Shown here in pieces: positions 233 through 8,158 of a DNA stretch of 8,708 nt. The stretch is from Betaproteobacteria bacterium (lineage in GTDB: Bacteria > Pseudomonadota > Gammaproteobacteria > Burkholderiales > Burkholderiaceae_E), in contig VGHV01000085.1 of the NCBI GenBank assembly GCA_016868095.1, positions 1-8,708 of the forward strand. Reading direction: 5' to 3'. Each line of letters begins with the position of its first letter. The first letter of the stretch is position 1. Position numbers and translations under genes: made by a program. Under the pieces are notes generated by a model. It saw nothing but the letters and a program-made list of their open reading frames with translations, was not told the origin of the DNA and made no database searches.

Positions 233-279
233 TATTTGCGCAAATATTTTTTTGCCGGATCTTCTTTAAAAAAATATTT
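233..279. repeat. AT-rich palindrome overlapping a 12-bp inverted repeat
   Basis: A perfect 14-bp palindrome (TATTTGCGCAAATA) occupies 233-246. It overlaps a perfect 12-bp inverted repeat: AAATATTTTTTT at 242-253 and AAAAAAATATTT at 268-279, separated by 14 bases. The arms contain only A and T, so as RNA this is a weak hairpin. As DNA it could be an operator or a bent or melting region upstream of the coiled-coil gene. The function is inferred; only the symmetry is seen. Confidence 0.5.
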
Positions 280-351: not shown

Positions 352-398
352 ATCCCGAATAACCCGCAGCACATTGAAGCTGCTCCAAGGAGAAGTTG

Positions 399-1127
399 AT
401 GAGTCAGATCGAAGATAATCGCGCAAACATCCGCGCCAATCGCAAGAAACTTTTTGAACTAGAATCCACTGTTATGTGGAATAAGGCGCAGGCTTATCGC
501 GAGCGCTCAATGATCGAGGAAAATCGAGCCTTGATCATGAAGAACTACTCGGCGGCCTTCATGGGCAACCGCCAGATGGCCAATCAGAATACCGATGACA
601 TTTTCAGAAACCGTAAGGCTATTCTTCAATCGATGAAGGTAGAGGGTGCGGTCCAGGAGAACTTTCGTGACTCCATGCTGAATCAGGCCCATATTGACTT
701 TCTCGATCATCGCTCAACACTCAATGCCCGCGTTATTGCAGTGAGCGAAAAGATGAGCGAAATCAACAAGATGTTGATCGAAGTCAATCACATGATCATG
801 GAAGGCAATGCCGAGATCGTCGAATTTAACGCCGGCAATATCGAGACGAACCGTAGATGGCTCGACGGCGATCTGCATCCCGAGCAGGCGACCCCAGAAA
901 CGAATGCACAACGCATTGCCTCAAATGAGTCAAGAATTGCTGAGATTCAGCAGCGCGCCACGGCCAACCGCGCAAAGATCGACGCCGTGATGGCGACCGT
1001 CGAAGGCAATCGGGCGGCGATTCTAAAGAACGCAGACGCAATCTATGAACGTCGCCAAAGCATTCTTGAAAACCATAAGAAGATCGCTGCAAATCAAGAG
1101 CGAATCACCAAGCTGATCGCTGGGTAA
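399..1127 (+). CDS. Asparagine-ladder coiled-coil protein, unknown function
   Basis: A 242-residue protein, nearly all alpha-helical, with no signal peptide, membrane segment or catalytic motif; I do not recognise a named family. The start is ATG 399, because AAGGAG at 387-392 lies 6 bases upstream; a TTG directly before it (396) is less likely. Asn recurs every seven residues: 7, 14, 28, 42, 49; then 57, 64, 71; then 88, 95, 109, 123, 130, 137, 144, 151; then 169, 176, 190, 204, 211, 225, 232. Ile, Val or Leu usually sits four residues after each Asn, giving an I-x-x-N heptad with the aliphatic residue at core position a and Asn at d. Eight of these Asn are followed by Arg. The register shifts at 49-57, 71-88 and 151-169, the last containing Pro161 and Pro166, a likely hinge. 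Asn at d is known from trimeric coiled coils of autotransporter adhesins, but no anchor or secretion signal is present here. A cytoplasmic rod or filament is the simplest inference. Confidence 0.85.
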   Translation: MSQIEDNRANIRANRKKLFELESTVMWNKAQAYRERSMIEENRALIMKNYSAAFMGNRQMANQNTDDIFRNRKAILQSMKVEGAVQENFRDSMLNQAHIDFLDHRSTLNARVIAVSEKMSEINKMLIEVNHMIMEGNAEIVEFNAGNIETNRRWLDGDLHPEQATPETNAQRIASNESRIAEIQQRATANRAKIDAVMATVEGNRAAILKNADAIYERRQSILENHKKIAANQERITKLIAG

Positions 1128-1203: not shown

Positions 1204-2097
1204 TCAATCGAGGCGCTTGCCTTTAAAGTCAGCCTCGCTGTGCCGCTCGGGTACTTGCGTGTCCGAGTCGCCGGTCAGCTTGTTGACAAGCCTACCTCGT
1301 TGAACCGCGGGTCGAGCGCCAATGTCTCGTGCCCAGCGCAGCAAATGCGTATAGCTTTCAACGTCAAGAAACTCCGCAGCACCGTAAAGCCTGCCGAGGA
1401 CTAGTTGCCCGTACCATGGCCAAATCGCTATGTCCGCGATGCTGTATGAATCACCCACGATAAATGCTTGGTCGGCCAACAATCGATCTAAGACATCCAT
1501 CTGACGTTTCACCTCCATGGTGAACCGATCGATCGGGTATTCCATCTTGCTTGGCGCATAAGCGTAGAAGTGGCCAAAGCCACCGCCGAGGTACGGGGCA
1601 CTTCCCATTTGCCAAAACAACCAGGAAAGGCAATCACTGCGCGCTGGATGCTCAGTAGGCAGGAATACCGAAAACTTTTCTGCAAGGTAGAACAAAATGG
1701 CGGCCGACTCAAACACAGTAACGGGTTTGTCGCCGCTTCGATCAACAAGGGCAGGAATTTTAGAGTTGGGATTGATCTCAACAAAACCTGTACTGAATTG
1801 CTCACCTTCCCCAATCCGAATCGACCAGGCGTCGTACTCGGCGCCGCTATAGCCAAGCGCAAGTAGCTCTTCGAGCATCACAGTGACCTTAACACCGTTG
1901 GGCGTTCCCAAGGAGTAAAGCTGCAAAGGATGTACTCCGACTGGTAAATCGGCTTCGTGAGTCGGTCCGGCAATAGGCCTATTGATGTTGGCAAAACGGC
2001 CGCCGTTGGCCTTATTCCAAGTCCAGACTTTCGGCGGCTGGTAGTCAGCGTTGGTTGTTGACGAATCTTTCGCGTCAAGTTCTGATCTATTTGTCAT
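1204..2097 (-). CDS. yghU: YghU-type glutathione S-transferase / disulfide reductase
   Basis: A 297-residue cytosolic protein closely resembling Escherichia coli YghU (288 residues as I recall it), a nu-class glutathione transferase with disulfide-bond reductase activity. The N-terminal extension carries VWTWNKANGG (24-33) and NINRPIAGPTHE (37-48), characteristic of this subfamily. The thioredoxin-like domain (about 57-142) has LYSLGTPNGVKV, NPNSKIPAL with the cis-Pro at 115, and FESAAIL with Glu130-Ser131, which normally contact glutathione. The helical domain (about 150-270) has GGGFGHFYAYAP (171-182) and the SIADIAIWPW fold box (219-228). The sequence is intact. The N-terminus is roughly ten residues longer than the E. 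coli protein, and the only GGAG lies 11 bases before the ATG, so the start could be slightly downstream. It is monocistronic and convergent with the coiled-coil gene. Its likely role is thiol or peroxide detoxification; the substrate is not determinable. Confidence 0.93.
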   Translation of the reverse strand: MTNRSELDAKDSSTTNADYQPPKVWTWNKANGGRFANINRPIAGPTHEADLPVGVHPLQLYSLGTPNGVKVTVMLEELLALGYSGAEYDAWSIRIGEGEQFSTGFVEINPNSKIPALVDRSGDKPVTVFESAAILFYLAEKFSVFLPTEHPARSDCLSWLFWQMGSAPYLGGGFGHFYAYAPSKMEYPIDRFTMEVKRQMDVLDRLLADQAFIVGDSYSIADIAIWPWYGQLVLGRLYGAAEFLDVESYTHLLRWARDIGARPAVQRGRLVNKLTGDSDTQVPERHSEADFKGKRLD

Positions 2098-2341: not shown

Positions 2342-2433
2342 GGAGAGGTGGATGAGTGGTTTAAATCGCACGCCTGGAAAGCGTGTGTACGTTTCAAAGC
2401 GTACCGCGGGTTCGAATCCCGCTCTCTCCGCCA
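2342..2433 (+). tRNA. tRNA-Ser (anticodon GGA)
   Basis: A complete class II tRNA gene. The acceptor strand GGAGAGG pairs with TCTCTCC (one G-U at the base), followed by the G discriminator expected for serine tRNAs and an encoded CCA (2431-2433). The anticodon stem CACGC/GCGTG encloses CTGGAAA, so the anticodon is GGA, reading UCC and UCU. A long variable arm (GTACG/CGTAC with loop TTTCAAAG) and the T arm GCGGG-TTCGAAT-CCCGC are intact. tRNA-Ser genes are common integration targets, and an integrase remnant lies 4.6 kb downstream, but no second copy of the tRNA 3' end is visible in the window. Confidence 0.98.
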
Positions 2434-3384: not shown

Positions 3385-3468
3385 CTCGAGATTCTCGTGG
3401 CAACCCGGCTCAGTCAAATTAACAGACTCACCTTACGTAGCCCAGTATGGCTGGACAGCAAGAATTGC

Positions 3469-4506
3469 ATGAAACGGTCAAAAATTTTGAGTCCTAAAGA
3501 AGCAGTGTGCCCAGCTCTTCGCAGGCGATGGCTTTTAGCCTGCGGTGCGCAGCTCGGCACCCTGTCTCTGACAGCGCCCATTGCCGGCTCGCTCAAGGCG
3601 CAGGCTTTCTGGCCCGACCGTCCAGTGAAACTCGTAGTGCCGGTAGGAGCAGGTGGGGCCGCAGACACCCTGTCGCGCAATCTCTCAAGCGGATTTTCGC
3701 AGTTGACCAATGGGCAGCCCTTGCTCGTTGAGAATCGGCCCGGTGCCGGTGGAACGATCGCTGCAGCTGCAGTAGCTAGGGAGAAGCCCGATGGCTACAC
3801 GCTCTTTCTCGCCGACGTTGGACCGAATGCGGTGTCGCACACCTTAGCCAAACTACCCTATAACCCGCACACCGCTTTCACACCAATCGTTCACGTGGCG
3901 AACCTACCCGCGGTTGTGTTAATACGTGCCGATTTGCCCTACAGGAACCTGAGCGAATTCCTCGAGGCTGCTCGCAAGCAACCGGGTAAATTCAACTTTG
4001 CCTCGGCGGGGCTCGGTAACTGGACGCATCTTTACATGGCCTATCTCAACAGTCTTGCGGGGATCGAGCAAGTCAATGTGATCTACAAATCCGGGGCAGA
4101 GATGGTGCTGGCCTTGCTCCGCGGCGATGCCGATACAGCAGTGATTACCGTATCCACTTCGCTTGGGCATGTGCGCGAGGGCAAAATCCGTCCTCTTGCT
4201 GGCATTGCAGCGCGACCGATGCGACAGTTACCGGAGGTGCCACCCGTGGCGCAGACCCTTCCCGGCTTTGATGTGAGCGTCTGGCATGGCATCGTCGGCC
4301 CCGCGGGAATGGAACCTACACTGGTGCTCCGGGTCAACGAGGTCTTCAACCGTGTACTGCAGGTACCGGCAGTGCGTACTGCAATTACCGAGTCTCAGGC
4401 AGCGGACATCATCGGAGGCACGCCGCAACAGTTTGACGGGTTCCTCAAAGAAGAACTCAGGCGCTGGCCCGAGGTTGTGAAACGCGCAGGGATTACGCCG
4501 CAGTGA
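3469..4506 (+). CDS. Bug/TctC-family periplasmic substrate-binding protein
   Basis: A 345-residue precursor of the tripartite tricarboxylate transporter receptor (Bug) family, which binds small organic acids or amides in the periplasm. The N-terminus has RRRWLL (18-23), a Tat-like twin-arginine motif, then a hydrophobic stretch and an AQA cleavage site before Phe47. Family landmarks are VKLVVPVGAGGAADTLSR (53-70), ENRPGAGG (88-95), KPDGYTL (106-112), KLPYNP (128-133), FASAGLGN (177-184) and the VWHGIVGPAG block (271-280). The frame is open from GTG 3397, but ATG 3469 places the signal peptide at the N-terminus; neither start has a strong ribosome binding site. No TctA/TctB membrane subunits are adjacent, so it is an orphan receptor, as is common in Burkholderiales. 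The gene converges on the SelA-like gene. The ligand cannot be deduced. Confidence 0.92.
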   Translation: MKRSKILSPKEAVCPALRRRWLLACGAQLGTLSLTAPIAGSLKAQAFWPDRPVKLVVPVGAGGAADTLSRNLSSGFSQLTNGQPLLVENRPGAGGTIAAAAVAREKPDGYTLFLADVGPNAVSHTLAKLPYNPHTAFTPIVHVANLPAVVLIRADLPYRNLSEFLEAARKQPGKFNFASAGLGNWTHLYMAYLNSLAGIEQVNVIYKSGAEMVLALLRGDADTAVITVSTSLGHVREGKIRPLAGIAARPMRQLPEVPPVAQTLPGFDVSVWHGIVGPAGMEPTLVLRVNEVFNRVLQVPAVRTAITESQAADIIGGTPQQFDGFLKEELRRWPEVVKRAGITPQ

Positions 4507-4609: not shown

Positions 4610-5815
4610 CTAAGACTCAAACTCTCGGAGTGCATTCAGGAGGCACTGCACAGCATAATCGTCATCGTCAGAGCGAAGTGCTGTTGGTATGAATAGCAGC
4701 AGACCTTCGCCAATACGAGACTCCCCCAAATGCAGTGGCACGGGTAGCTCCTGTAAGGCGAGACTGAGGCGAAACACATTTGTGTTTGAAGGCTTTATCG
4801 CGAGGCAAGGTACTCCAGCACCAGGTAGACAATCTAAAAGTTCCACCGATAACCCTGGCTGCACCATAAGTTTTTCTTTGATAATGTCAAGGCGCCGTCT
4901 CCACTCATGGTGTTGGATCACTTCGTCGGCATTAAGATAGCGCTCAAGGGCACAAATAAGACCTGCAATCTCTTCCTTACCAACCTTGAAACCACGCCCA
5001 ATACCATGGGTCGGTAGACCCTTAAGGGATTTACGATTGATGAAACCTGCTGGTATCCAGGTGGCAGGATGAACATCCATGTCCAGCATCTGCAAAAGGG
5101 CTGATCCGATAAGAGCGCTGCGTCCCGCCAAGATTCCAGTGGATTGCGGTCCCCCGATTGCCTTACCCCCACTGAAGATGACAAGATCTGCGCCAGTGGC
5201 GATTAGGCTCTGAAGATTGCTTCGAGGGGGTAGCTGAGCTGCGGCATCAACGATCACGAAGCGTCCATGCCTATGCAGCGTTTCAATGACCTGTGGCAAA
5301 TCGCTAAGCGTCTTCGCGGTAGCTGTAAACACCATTCCTACTACCTGACCATTAATGTGTGATTCAATTTCCCAAGATTCAAGGCTTCGAACGCCTGCAC
5401 CCGTGCCGTAATCGTTATGCCCGATGTCAACTATTTTTGCACCAGCTAGGCGCACGGCATGATCGTAGGTATTGCGATGGGTACGGGCCATAAGCATGTG
5501 ATTCGGCATGCCCTCCGCTTGAGGTAGCTGCGCCATCGCTGCTGCCTCCCACCCCGCCAAACAAGCCGCACAGGCCAGAGTCATCGCAGCACTAGCCCCA
5601 CTTGTAACCAGGGCAGCCTCAGCTCCCATAAGCTCAGCAACTCGCCTTCCCGCAGCTGATTGGAGTTCTGCCATATCGACTGAAAAGCGAGCCGCTTCGC
5701 ACATAGCTTCAAGCACTTCATTCGCCATCAGGGATCCTCCCAAACGAGTCAGGGTTCCCGCCGCATTGAGCCGGCGGCGAACTCCTAGTCGATATAGGAA
5801 ATTAATGTCGCTCAT
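4610..5815 (-). CDS. SelA-like PLP-dependent enzyme
   Basis: A 401-residue fold-type I PLP enzyme of the SelA/DgaE-like group (selenocysteine synthase-related, including D-glucosaminate-6-phosphate ammonia-lyase). Visible motifs are NAAGTLTRLGGS (17-28), TSGASAAMTLA (71-81, PLP phosphate region), VDAAAQLPP (189-197, Asp190 expected to contact the PLP nitrogen), SGGKAIGGPQSTG (215-227, Lys218 the expected Schiff-base lysine) and THGIGRGFKVGKEEI (269-283). It is shorter than true SelA (about 460 residues), so a lyase or racemase on a small amino or sugar substrate is more likely than selenocysteine synthesis. The start at 5815 fits the family N-terminus (LYRLGVRRRLNAAG), although no Shine-Dalgarno is visible. 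It converges with the Bug receptor gene. The exact reaction is unknown. Confidence 0.88.
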   Translation of the reverse strand: MSDINFLYRLGVRRRLNAAGTLTRLGGSLMANEVLEAMCEAARFSVDMAELQSAAGRRVAELMGAEAALVTSGASAAMTLACAACLAGWEAAAMAQLPQAEGMPNHMLMARTHRNTYDHAVRLAGAKIVDIGHNDYGTGAGVRSLESWEIESHINGQVVGMVFTATAKTLSDLPQVIETLHRHGRFVIVDAAAQLPPRSNLQSLIATGADLVIFSGGKAIGGPQSTGILAGRSALIGSALLQMLDMDVHPATWIPAGFINRKSLKGLPTHGIGRGFKVGKEEIAGLICALERYLNADEVIQHHEWRRRLDIIKEKLMVQPGLSVELLDCLPGAGVPCLAIKPSNTNVFRLSLALQELPVPLHLGESRIGEGLLLFIPTALRSDDDDYAVQCLLNALREFES

Positions 5816-6340: not shown

Positions 6341-7020
6341 TCATGGAACACCGACTTGGTCGACATCCTGTGTCGTGATAGCTACGTTTAAGTAATTGAC
6401 TTTGCCCACGAAGACTTCTACAACGGTTAAAACTCCATCGGTGGGGTTAAAGTCGGTGGTTGCATAGCTTCGTTTTTCTTGCACTCCGATTGATAATAGT
6501 TGTTTAACAGTAACAATAACGTTATGGTAAGTGGTAGTTCCGACTTCCACTTTTGATATTTGTAACTGATTTGTTTCCGGGTCGTAATGGTCGACTTCCC
6601 TATGATAAATTCTTGCAGATTACCTTAAGTCTGAAGCAAAGACTACCGCCCTGTAGACATTTAGCATGCCCGCGCCTCAAGTGCTGGTCGTGCAGTAACA
6701 CTCGAGTTGCTCCTTATTATCGACAGGTACTTTGCAGCTCCGTACATCCGATTGCGCGCCACTTAAAGGAAAGGGGTGAGCTGTTCGTTGCAAGATGCGT
6801 TTTGGCTCGGCGGGCGTGAGGCCTGGGTTCGCTGACCGAATGAGTGCTACGGTCGCCGCCACAAGCGGAGCCGCAAAACTTGTACCTACAAAATAGTTCT
6901 CACTGTCAGAGTATGTGTTGGCTCCCTGGGTTGTCTTACCTGCGTTGGTGGTTGTTTCAAGAGGGTAGAGACAAGGTCCGTTCAGATTGACGCAGTTGCC
7001 AGCAGGTGCCCCAACACTGT
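6341..7020 (-). pseudogene. Truncated subtilisin-like serine protease with two internal stops
   Basis: Read on the minus strand, one continuous frame carries the C-terminal part of an S8 (subtilase) catalytic domain: SVGAPAGNCVN, GPCLYPLETTTN, then YFVGTSFAAPLVAATVALI with the nucleophile Ser codon at 6880-6878. ANPGLTPAEPKRILQRTA follows, then QLECYCTTST. There TGA (6679-6677) replaces the Cys expected in the family motif CTTSTCGAGM; the frame continues GAGMLNVYRAV. A TAA (6622-6620) follows, then two 36-residue repeats to TGA 6343-6341. The Asp and His parts of the triad and the signal peptide are missing. Family-like sequence stops near 7015-7020, where integrase sequence on the opposite strand begins, and an in-frame stop lies at 7111-7109. 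Such proteases are normally secreted. This copy is clearly dead. Confidence 0.85.
6350..6592 (-). repeat. Two 36-residue protein repeats in the protease remnant
   Basis: Repeat 1 (6592-6485) begins DHYDPETNQLQISKVEVG and repeat 2 (6457-6350) begins TDFNPTDGVLTVVEVFVG. They align over 36 residues without gaps, sharing the pattern (Y/F)(D/N)P..xxLxxxxVxVGxxxYxNVxxT, and are separated by nine residues. The pattern suggests small beta-strand modules at the C-terminus of a secreted protein. They are diverged (no obvious DNA-level identity), so the duplication is old. Confidence 0.6.
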
Positions 7021-7021
7021 A

Positions 7022-7120
7022 CGCCGCACCATAGGTGACGTCAGGGCATGGACGATTGATGGCGCTCGTGCCGAAGCGAACCGTCTTCGGGTCACACTCG
7101 ATAGTGGTTTAGATCCGAGG
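7022..7120 (+). pseudogene. In-frame upstream part of the integrase, start lost
   Basis: The integrase frame continues upstream of GTG 7121 without a stop and still reads like integrase: RRTIGDVRAWTIDGARAEAN, then RLRVTLDSGLDPRV. This is the DUF4102-type arm-binding segment ending in the usual G-x-D-P-R. There is no ATG, GTG or TTG in frame between 7022 and 7121. Upstream of about 7022 the sequence instead encodes the subtilase on the other strand. The first 60-75 residues expected for this family are therefore missing. Confidence 0.75.
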
Positions 7121-8158
7121 GTGCTTGATAAGCAGCGTGAAGAGAAAGCAAAGCTTCAAATAGCCAAGGAACTGGCAAGAGCCGTCACCGTCGGCGACGC
7201 TTGGAAGGTCTACATTGCCGAGCGCACTAAGACTTGGAGACCTAGAACACTGGCAGACCACGTACGGATGATTGAACCCGGTGGCAGAAAGGCGAGTCGC
7301 GGAACGCGAGGAAGAGGTATTACTGTACCCGGACCTATCTATCCACTCTTGCAAGTGCGCCTTGTTGACCTAACACCCGAGGTCGTTGAACGTTGGGCAA
7401 AGACGCAAGGAGAAGAGCGATCCACCTTTGGACGTCTGGCATGGCGTTGCCTCAAAGCATTTTTGAATTGGTGTTCAACGGAGCCGGACTATAAGCATCT
7501 GGTGAATGCACAAGCGGCATCAACGAGAAAGACTCGGGAGAGTTTTGGTAAGCCCGTTGCCAGAAAGGATGCGCTGGAACGTAATCAACTTGCTGCTTGG
7601 TTTAAAGCGGTACGAGCGATTGAAAACCCTGTGGTCTCAGCCGTCCTCCAATTCATGCTGCTCTCGGGAGCTAGAGAAAATGAAGTATTAAGTCTGCGCT
7701 GGAGCGATGTGAACTTTCACTGGCGAAAGATTGTGATCAAAGACAAAGTAGAAACCAGCCGAGAGATTCCGCTCACCAACTACATAGCATCCCTGCTTGA
7801 GCCATTGCCTCGTGTGAATGAGTGGGTCTTTTCCAGCAAGACCTCGGCCTCAGGCGCTCTATCTATTCCCAGCAAAGCACTTGACGCGGTCTGCAACGAA
7901 GCTGGTATTGAACACCTAACAGTCCACGGCTTGAGACGATCATTTGGAAGCCTTGCCGAGTGGCTTGATATTCCTACGGGTATTGTCAGCCAGATCATGG
8001 GTCACAAACCCTCAGCGACCGCTGAGAAGCATTACCGCATCCGGCCTATCGATCTTCTCAGGCAACACCACCAGCGTTATGAAGACTGGATCTTGGAGCA
8101 AGCGCAACTGATCCCAGTCAGTGAAGCTAATCACGGTCTGAAGATTGTTAATGCCTAA
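7121..8158 (+). CDS. Tyrosine recombinase/integrase, N-terminally truncated
   Basis: A phage/island-type tyrosine integrase, 345 residues from the first available start (GTG 7121), which has no convincing ribosome binding site. The core-binding domain is about 22-120 (GDAWKVYIAERTKTWRPRTL). The catalytic domain, about 150-325, keeps the expected residues: Arg185 in LLSGARENEVLSL, Lys207 or Lys209 in the beta hairpin, His269 and Arg272 in VHGLRRSFGS, His295 in IMGHK and nucleophile Tyr305 in AEKHYR. The catalytic half thus looks intact, whereas the arm-binding N-terminus is cut off by a junction near 7015-7025. Such enzymes normally insert elements at tRNA genes; a tRNA-Ser lies 4.6 kb upstream. 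It is unlikely to be functional unless started at GTG. Confidence 0.88.
   Translation: MLDKQREEKAKLQIAKELARAVTVGDAWKVYIAERTKTWRPRTLADHVRMIEPGGRKASRGTRGRGITVPGPIYPLLQVRLVDLTPEVVERWAKTQGEERSTFGRLAWRCLKAFLNWCSTEPDYKHLVNAQAASTRKTRESFGKPVARKDALERNQLAAWFKAVRAIENPVVSAVLQFMLLSGARENEVLSLRWSDVNFHWRKIVIKDKVETSREIPLTNYIASLLEPLPRVNEWVFSSKTSASGALSIPSKALDAVCNEAGIEHLTVHGLRRSFGSLAEWLDIPTGIVSQIMGHKPSATAEKHYRIRPIDLLRQHHQRYEDWILEQAQLIPVSEANHGLKIVNA

Follow-up and report, generated by a model that had tools for sequence, protein, structure and literature searches.

What fold is adopted by a protein in which asparagine recurs at intervals of seven residues along almost its entire length? The question is raised by a gene on contig VGHV01000085.1 of a Betaproteobacteria bacterium (assembly GCA_016868095.1), of which a stretch of 8,708 nucleotides, here termed the window, has been analysed. 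The gene occupies positions 399..1127 on the plus strand and encodes 242 amino acids. Buried asparagines are normally used sparingly in helical cores, where they set the register, and protein design engineers asparagine networks for specificity. The best explanation of the sequence, to which a probability only slightly better than even (about 0.52) is assigned, is a stiff, soluble strut of three long antiparallel helices formed by a single chain, whose conserved asparagines likely face the core and would there lock the register, and which likely pairs side by side with a second copy of itself.

The asparagine ladder

The span given for the gene starts at ATG 399 and includes the stop codon; an open reading frame listing places the start one codon earlier, at TTG 396. 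Six nucleotides ahead of ATG 399 the plus strand reads AAGGAG (387..392), a ribosome-binding-site-like element that is identical in the related locus L007 and retained as GGAG in the related locus L004. The product contains 26 asparagines, 23 of which fall into four seven-residue registers (7, 14, 28, 42 and 49; 57, 64 and 71; 88, 95, 109, 123, 130, 137, 144 and 151; 169, 176, 190, 204, 211, 225 and 232). Asparagine pairs at spacings of 7, 14 and 21 residues number 12, 11 and 10, compared with means of 2.6, 2.5 and 2.5 in 20,000 rearrangements of the protein's own letters, none of which reached the observed count at any of these spacings. The signal is weaker at a spacing of 28, where six pairs occur and 416 of the 20,000 shuffles get there. 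A sequence-only reading of the window had described a ladder of 23 asparagines in four registers, and this description is exact. The residue three positions ahead of the asparagine is Ile, Val, Met, Phe or Ala at 19/23 rungs, the exceptions being Ser ahead of rungs 95, 109 and 123, all in helix 2 of the fold described below, and Pro ahead of rung 169. Successive heptads hence combine a hydrophobic residue at position a with asparagine at position d, the motif of the so-called N@d core. Neither a signal peptide nor a membrane helix is evident by eye in the 242-residue protein, which starts with MSQIEDNRAN.

Conservation of the ladder

The ladder is a conserved feature of a protein family, as judged from a hand-chosen alignment of 119 rows that includes the window protein and leaves out fragments, tandem forms, and many near-copies; the first alignment comprised 40 of 120 listed proteins plus the window protein. 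All 23 asparagines are retained in 76/119 rows, many of them at 45–58% identity, and another 22 rows retain 22. Even among rows at 40–42% identity, two keep the complete set. Averaged over the three helices, heptad position d carries the highest information (3.50 bits), followed by a (3.02 bits), with the other positions at 1.86–2.48 bits. A homologous family with conserved asparagine at d, named in the sequence-only reading as an outcome that would support it, does exist, and the seven-residue spacing is conserved among the homologues. Full-length homology and the retention of asparagine at the d positions place the window protein within this family.

The most conserved segment comprises residues 56–65 (GNRQMANQNT; 564..593, plus strand), an assignment that is partly biased by the genome-scan pattern specified below; Gly56, Asn57, and Arg58 are invariant across the 119 rows. 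A separate set of 126 rows below 40% identity amounts to about 13 effective sequences. Its 30 best-conserved positions concentrate at a single level of the predicted strut: 21 fall within 20 levels against a random mean of 12.2, a value as high not being obtained in any of 5,000 draws. This level joins residues of about 54–65, 102–109, and 218–226 and includes Arg219, Ile222, and position 226, which is Arg in 91%. Part of the clustering is ascertainment, since the genome-scan pattern used two of the clustered motifs; the helix 3 residues of the level lie outside the search patterns.

Predicted fold and helix arrangement

AlphaFold2, supplied with the 119-row alignment, predicts three helices at residues 3–77, 83–158, and 166–241 with a mean predicted local distance difference test (pLDDT) score of 97.2 and a predicted template-modelling score (pTM) of 0.82. 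On the plus strand, helix 1 (405..629) would carry rungs 7, 14, 28, 42, 49, 57, 64 and 71, with a one-residue skip between 49 and 57 that divides it into segments 1a and 1b; helix 2 (645..872) would carry rungs 88, 95, 109, 123, 130, 137, 144 and 151 and an extra hydrophobic stripe at positions c and g; and helix 3 (894..1121) would carry rungs 169, 176, 190, 204, 211, 225 and 232 as well as the conserved Arg218/Arg219. The helices are connected by predicted turn 1 (residues 78–82, 630..644, plus strand) and turn 2 (residues 159–165, 873..893, plus strand), in which DSSP assigns a three-residue helical turn at 161–163. The two long register jumps of the ladder, from 71 to 88 (+17) and from 151 to 169 (+18), coincide with these turns. 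Independently of AlphaFold, an alignment of 314 rows places 51/69 internal insertion counts at residues 76–84 or 155–168, that is, at the turns; insertions follow residue 81 in 10/314 rows, and 41 counts follow residues 155–161, where one row can count repeatedly. In addition, most of the divergent rows are shortened near the turns, where 3 or 7 residues are missing from position 84 on and five at 174–178.

The relative orientation of the helices was addressed by mean-field direct-coupling analysis (DCA) of 314 rows (about 97 effective) out of 318 aligned, from which proteins longer than 310 residues or with a coverage below 75% were left out. Between helix 1a and helix 2, the antiparallel diagonal i+j=165, which applies before the skip, ranks first of 87, and between helix 1b and helix 2, the diagonal i+j=166, which applies after it, ranks second of 72 behind 171; both are in d-d′ phase. 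Between helices 1 and 3, the parallel diagonal j−i=162 ranks first of 72. For helices 2 and 3, the share of strong couplings is best in the antiparallel windows 319–327, near the value of 327 implied by the other two offsets. An antiparallel arrangement of helices 1 and 2 is supported by these statistics, and a parallel one of helices 1 and 3 less firmly so.

Comparison of the predicted model with the Protein Data Bank (PDB) by Foldseek returned as its top two rows both chains of the designed bundle 4tql, which are weak matches (E 0.03–0.04, template-modelling (TM) score 0.38–0.40). Like the predicted fold of the window protein, 4tql is a single chain of three helices (229–235 residues), but it is a design, whereas the window protein is natural and would have an asparagine-rich core. 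The low TM score and a root-mean-square deviation near 11 suggest that supercoil or register likely differs between the two. Spectrin repeats consist of helices of roughly 30 residues, and adjacent repeats share a continuous helix. In contrast to spectrin-type repeats (1s35), the helices predicted here are 75 residues long, and tandem units are predicted to be packed over a disordered linker; the spectrin repeat model of Pfam gave no match to the window protein at E ≤ 1.

A probable polar core and its resemblance to adhesin stalks

In the ladder subfamily, the hydrophobic moment, calculated with d positions excluded, points 20, 38, −18, and 62 degrees away from d in helices 1a, 1b, 2, and 3, respectively. 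As the deviation amounts to 18–62 degrees in all four segments, the asparagines likely face inward, and a location on the surface, which would have spoken against a polar core, is not indicated by the analyses made. With the helices aligned by the DCA offsets, the strut would consist of the layers 7/158/169, 14/151/176, 21/144/183, 28/137/190, 35/130/197, 42/123/204, 49/116/211, 57/109/218, 64/102/225, and 71/95/232, of which four are all-asparagine, four contain two asparagines, and two contain one. Asparagine is absent from positions 21 and 35 of helix 1 and likewise from 183 and 197 of helix 3, 162 residues on; position 218 also lacks it. An alternative register one heptad off, as the turn centres alone would suggest, yields six all-asparagine layers.

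The best PDB match of the family profile is the stalk of the trimeric adhesin UspA1 (2qih, E 5.5e-5); next come a coronavirus S2 chain, the stalk of EibD (2xzr, E 0.003), and a design construct. According to PMC6839023, UspA1 residues 527–665 (2QIH) contain eight N@d layers that coordinate chloride, and chloride binding by N@d stalks is described in both PMC6839023 and PMC4786415. The likeness to N@d stalks proposed from the single sequence is thus borne out at the sequence level. It extends to Ile or Val at a, asparagine at d, and the expected location of the asparagines in the core. However, in the adhesins three copies of a surface protein associate in parallel to form the stalk, whereas here one chain with 23 rungs is predicted to give all three helices, with helix 2 reversed. 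The three predicted helices occupy all 242 residues, and Pfam and NCBIfam gave no match to a YadA-type membrane-anchor domain in the window protein. As far as tested, the resemblance is one of heptad grammar and does not indicate shared ancestry; on the predicted model, the protein is likely a single-chain version of the polar core of trimeric-adhesin stalks. A like isoleucine/asparagine pattern is found in the aligned deposited stretch of the design construct ‘AAA’ (6nx2), which differs in being artificial and in consisting of separate 98-residue chains, three in the entry. When the window sequence was searched singly against the PDB (E ≤ 1), the UspA1 and EibD stalks were not listed; the matches that did appear, Rheb chains (E 0.02–0.7) and an S-layer protein (E 0.97), were taken as chance.

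With regard to the oligomeric state, helix 2 displays additional conserved hydrophobic residues at c and g (e.g., 101, 108, 112, 115, 119, 126, 133, 140, and 143), with mean hydropathies of 1.97 at c and 0.61 at g. For the natural tandem protein P0121, AlphaFold2 (15-row alignment) predicts two three-helix units with a mean pLDDT of 90.8 and a pTM of 0.85 across 511 residues. That this pTM is reached despite a linker (242–251) with a pLDDT under 50 suggests that the two bundles pack against each other, and by extension the single-unit protein may dimerise.

A proposed three-helix strut and competing explanations

In the proposed strut, each polar layer, comprising asparagines from two or three helices, would fix alignment and topology, as buried asparagines do in coiled coils. 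The layers may in addition hold water or an anion, by analogy with the N@d layers of trimeric adhesin stalks. Helix 2 would provide the dimer face through its hydrophobic c/g stripe, and the most conserved level would be a docking or ligand site. The protein would then serve as a scaffold module, and some relatives with a myristoylation-like start would likely be tethered to membranes. Dimerisation, anion binding, and the cellular role are the weakest steps of this proposal.

Several observations weigh against the strut. Layers, inward-facing asparagines, and the dimer face were not read from model coordinates, and the direction of the asparagines rests on the hydrophobic moments. The strong-coupling share between helices 1 and 3 is highest near j−i 193–199 and not at 162, and beyond the skip, where a diagonal of 161 would be expected, this diagonal reaches no more than rank 20 of 72. 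Between helices 2 and 3, the antiparallel diagonals 310 and 331 rank first and second of 73, and parallel diagonals score as high. Several individual layer pairs show no coupling, and the self-contact signal between helix 2 and helix 2′ has no peak at the helix centre and a single strong pair (102–140). The remaining 18/69 insertion counts fall inside predicted helix 3 (173, 189, 194, and 213). Foldseek gave no match at E ≤ 0.001, its matches to known folds being weak. The co-occurrence of asparagine losses was dropped as a test of the layers, as the losses occur in few divergent lineages and are correlated across many unrelated pairs; the test is confounded by phylogeny and does not discriminate between the registers. 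In 16 rows at 22–36% identity, only 6–19 of the 23 asparagines are retained (gaps counted as losses), so that the complete ladder is the mark of a subfamily and not of the superfamily at large; judged by the alignment, the ladder is not essential to every family member. Finally, the neighbours of the 83 called loci contain no conserved operon that would point to a process.

A more far-reaching version of the strut appears doubtful. It envisages a one-chain N@d anion core, in which an 11-nm antiparallel strut would file anions or waters through about eight asparagine-lined layers, dimerise via helix 2, and be shared between aquatic bacteria and single-celled eukaryotes, where it would be lipid-tethered, tandem-doubled, and fused to calcium-binding EF-hands, giving rise to a strut of a new class that serves the cytoskeleton or the membrane edge. 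The sequence-only reading had favoured a parallel homotrimer, that is, a rod or filament, soluble and with a polar core, in which interchain asparagine triads would hold anions. Such an assembly would account for the I-x-x-N heptad grammar, which matches that of known N@d trimer stalks including the eight chloride-holding layers of UspA1, and for the profile matches to UspA1 and EibD. It is, however, difficult to reconcile with three equal predicted helices separated by two turns at which insertions accumulate and the register jumps, with the antiparallel coupling of helices 1 and 2, and with the prediction of tandem copies as two three-helix units; moreover, the stalks are not found by the single window sequence. 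The single-chain fold predicted by AlphaFold2 speaks against a continuous trimeric rod over 232 residues, and the homotrimer is therefore disfavoured by the model, its probability being low. Even less credit is given to an ordinary asparagine-rich coiled coil or low-complexity product devoid of a specific polar-core role: Pfam and NCBIfam matches are indeed confined to sub-cut-off hits to coiled-coil families or families of no stated function, yet conservation is position-specific across hundreds of clusters and includes invariant, non-repetitive segments.

Two live rivals of the single-chain strut, both considered unlikely, assign a different function to a similar bundle. The first is a BAR-like dimer with three long helices per chain, arranged side by side, which would bind or shape membranes. 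BAR, F-BAR, and I-BAR domains share the three long helices and a similar total length and are among the middling structural matches, but matches of such strength are common for helical bundles. Pfam lacks a BAR-family match both for the window protein (E ≤ 1) and for 19 members including it (E ≤ 0.01), and the window protein has no MGxxxS start. The other rival, which deserves marginally more credence, regards the bundle as the mere frame of a ligand-binding protein in which one level of the strut provides a polar site, putatively formed by Gly56-Asn57-Arg58-Gln59, His104-Arg105, Asn109, and Arg218/Arg219. The invariance of residues 56–58 and the clustering of conserved positions at a single level, unselected Arg219, Ile222, and position 226 included, argue for this explanation; against it stand the contribution of ascertainment to the clustering, the dependence of the level mapping on DCA offsets, and the fact that no ligand is known.

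If the single-chain strut is correct, the family would be a natural case of one chain whose three helices conserve asparagine at almost all d positions. Such a family would allow the specification of topology by polar cores to be tested and could serve as a template for protein design. It would also give a name to a large unannotated family of mostly planktonic bacteria. Should ions occupy the core, the anion-holding coiled coils of surface adhesins would gain a soluble counterpart that has no evident export signal.

Distribution and relatives of the family

The family is large, named by none of the libraries searched, and found mostly in aquatic bacteria, chiefly Proteobacteria. A protein search detected 146 relatives at E ≤ 1e-3, and profile searches detected at least 234 (7996 candidates sharing most words having been scored) or, when started from divergent members, 554; the best 120 per search were listed, giving 255 listed proteins in total from overlapping lists. 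Matches of the window protein in Pfam and NCBIfam stay below the cut-offs and concern coiled-coil families or families of no stated function, PHROGs gave one weak match without assigned function (E 0.023), and PADLOC and the phage collection gave none. No paper on the family was found among open-licence PMC papers. A scan of species genomes, the pattern of which required GNRQ..N.NT or [DE]..[ED]HR...N, yielded 79 family loci titled mainly Proteobacteria, many marine by name (SAR116, Pelagibacterales, Porticoccaceae, OM182, Luminiphilus) and some from lakes; a few of the titles look mis-binned. Family members also occur in records titled Altiarchaeales, Flavobacteriaceae, and Thermoflexus (L057, L059, L060, and L065). 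The L065 protein is near-identical to that of the lake betaproteobacterial locus L067, which makes mis-binning or contamination likely for L065.

Among the matches listed, the closest named genome contigs, at 95% identity, are those of a Burkholderiaceae bacterium (L007). A copy with 96% identity is encoded on one IMG/VR contig, which shares the glutathione-transferase-like neighbour of the window and is therefore likely bacterial DNA. The window's own genome harbors a second copy at 80% identity and one fragment. Distribution is patchy: 2/61 genomes were positive in the search of relatives (the own genome and one of the same genus), as were 2/274 in the class search (the own genome and another with a weak match, E 1.6e-6, that lies within a 587-residue frame). 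A copy on a plasmid of Octadecabacter arcticus (L084, 8001–8714) is flanked by two IS6 transposase genes, and their presence on both sides suggests mobility.

Source labels eukprot, mmetsp, or merc, which denote eukaryote collections, are attached to 13/255 listed proteins. An MGxxxS start, which is myristoylation-like, is present in 19/255. The family profile matches twice in 15/255, six of which contain two near-complete units (P0121–P0124, P0126, and P0127). Two fusions, of P0029 to EF-hands and of P0129 to a Dpy-30 motif, derive from a metagenome source and are not eukaryote-labelled. In a 69-row tree, 15 rows classified as eukaryote-like by source, start, or likeness to such rows lie together in a single clade of 18 (98/97), which also includes three unlabelled rows. 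This clade groups with seven betaproteobacterial-labelled rows (98/98), including the window protein and one row titled Pseudomonadales; the divergent lake betaproteobacterial rows L067 and L074 are placed elsewhere on long branches. That the nearest neighbours of the window's clade are eukaryote-labelled rows suggests gene transfer in one direction or the other.

Genomic context

A family gene was called in 83/84 loci, and its neighbours include no general partner. Among neighbours on the same strand, a MORN-repeat gene recurs most often, being located directly downstream in 9/83 loci (L056, L058, L060, L061, L062, L064, L066, L069, and L072) with gaps of 32–127 bp, where the ladder gene is a divergent paralogue. 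Pfam confirmed the MORN repeats in 4/4 neighbours tested, and the four MORN-adjacent loci in the tree form one group (100/89) away from the subfamily of the window.

Upstream of the ladder gene, an inverted repeat with perfect 12-nucleotide AT-rich arms (AAATATTTTTTT and AAAAAAATATTT) spans 242..279 (arms 242–253 and 268–279); it is not common to the aligned upstream regions of four relatives. A promoter scan of the plus strand of 150–1250 revealed no sigma-70-like site. In the window, L004, and L007, the ladder gene is adjoined by a glutathione-transferase-like gene on the opposite strand, which in the window (1204–2097, minus strand) encodes a YghU-like glutathione-dependent oxidoreductase. 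Further along, the window contains a tRNA gene (2342–2430, plus strand), its sole Rfam match at gathering thresholds, a gene for a TctC-type receptor (3397–4506, plus strand), and one for a DgaE/SelA-like pyridoxal phosphate enzyme (4610–5815, minus strand) that scores below the NCBIfam family cut-offs. A remnant resembling a subtilase C-terminus (6677–7120, minus strand), read by eye as a GTSFAAP-like motif followed by a 61-residue frame, adjoins a tyrosine recombinase gene (7121–8158; Phage_integrase in Pfam), and this juxtaposition possibly reflects an insertion.
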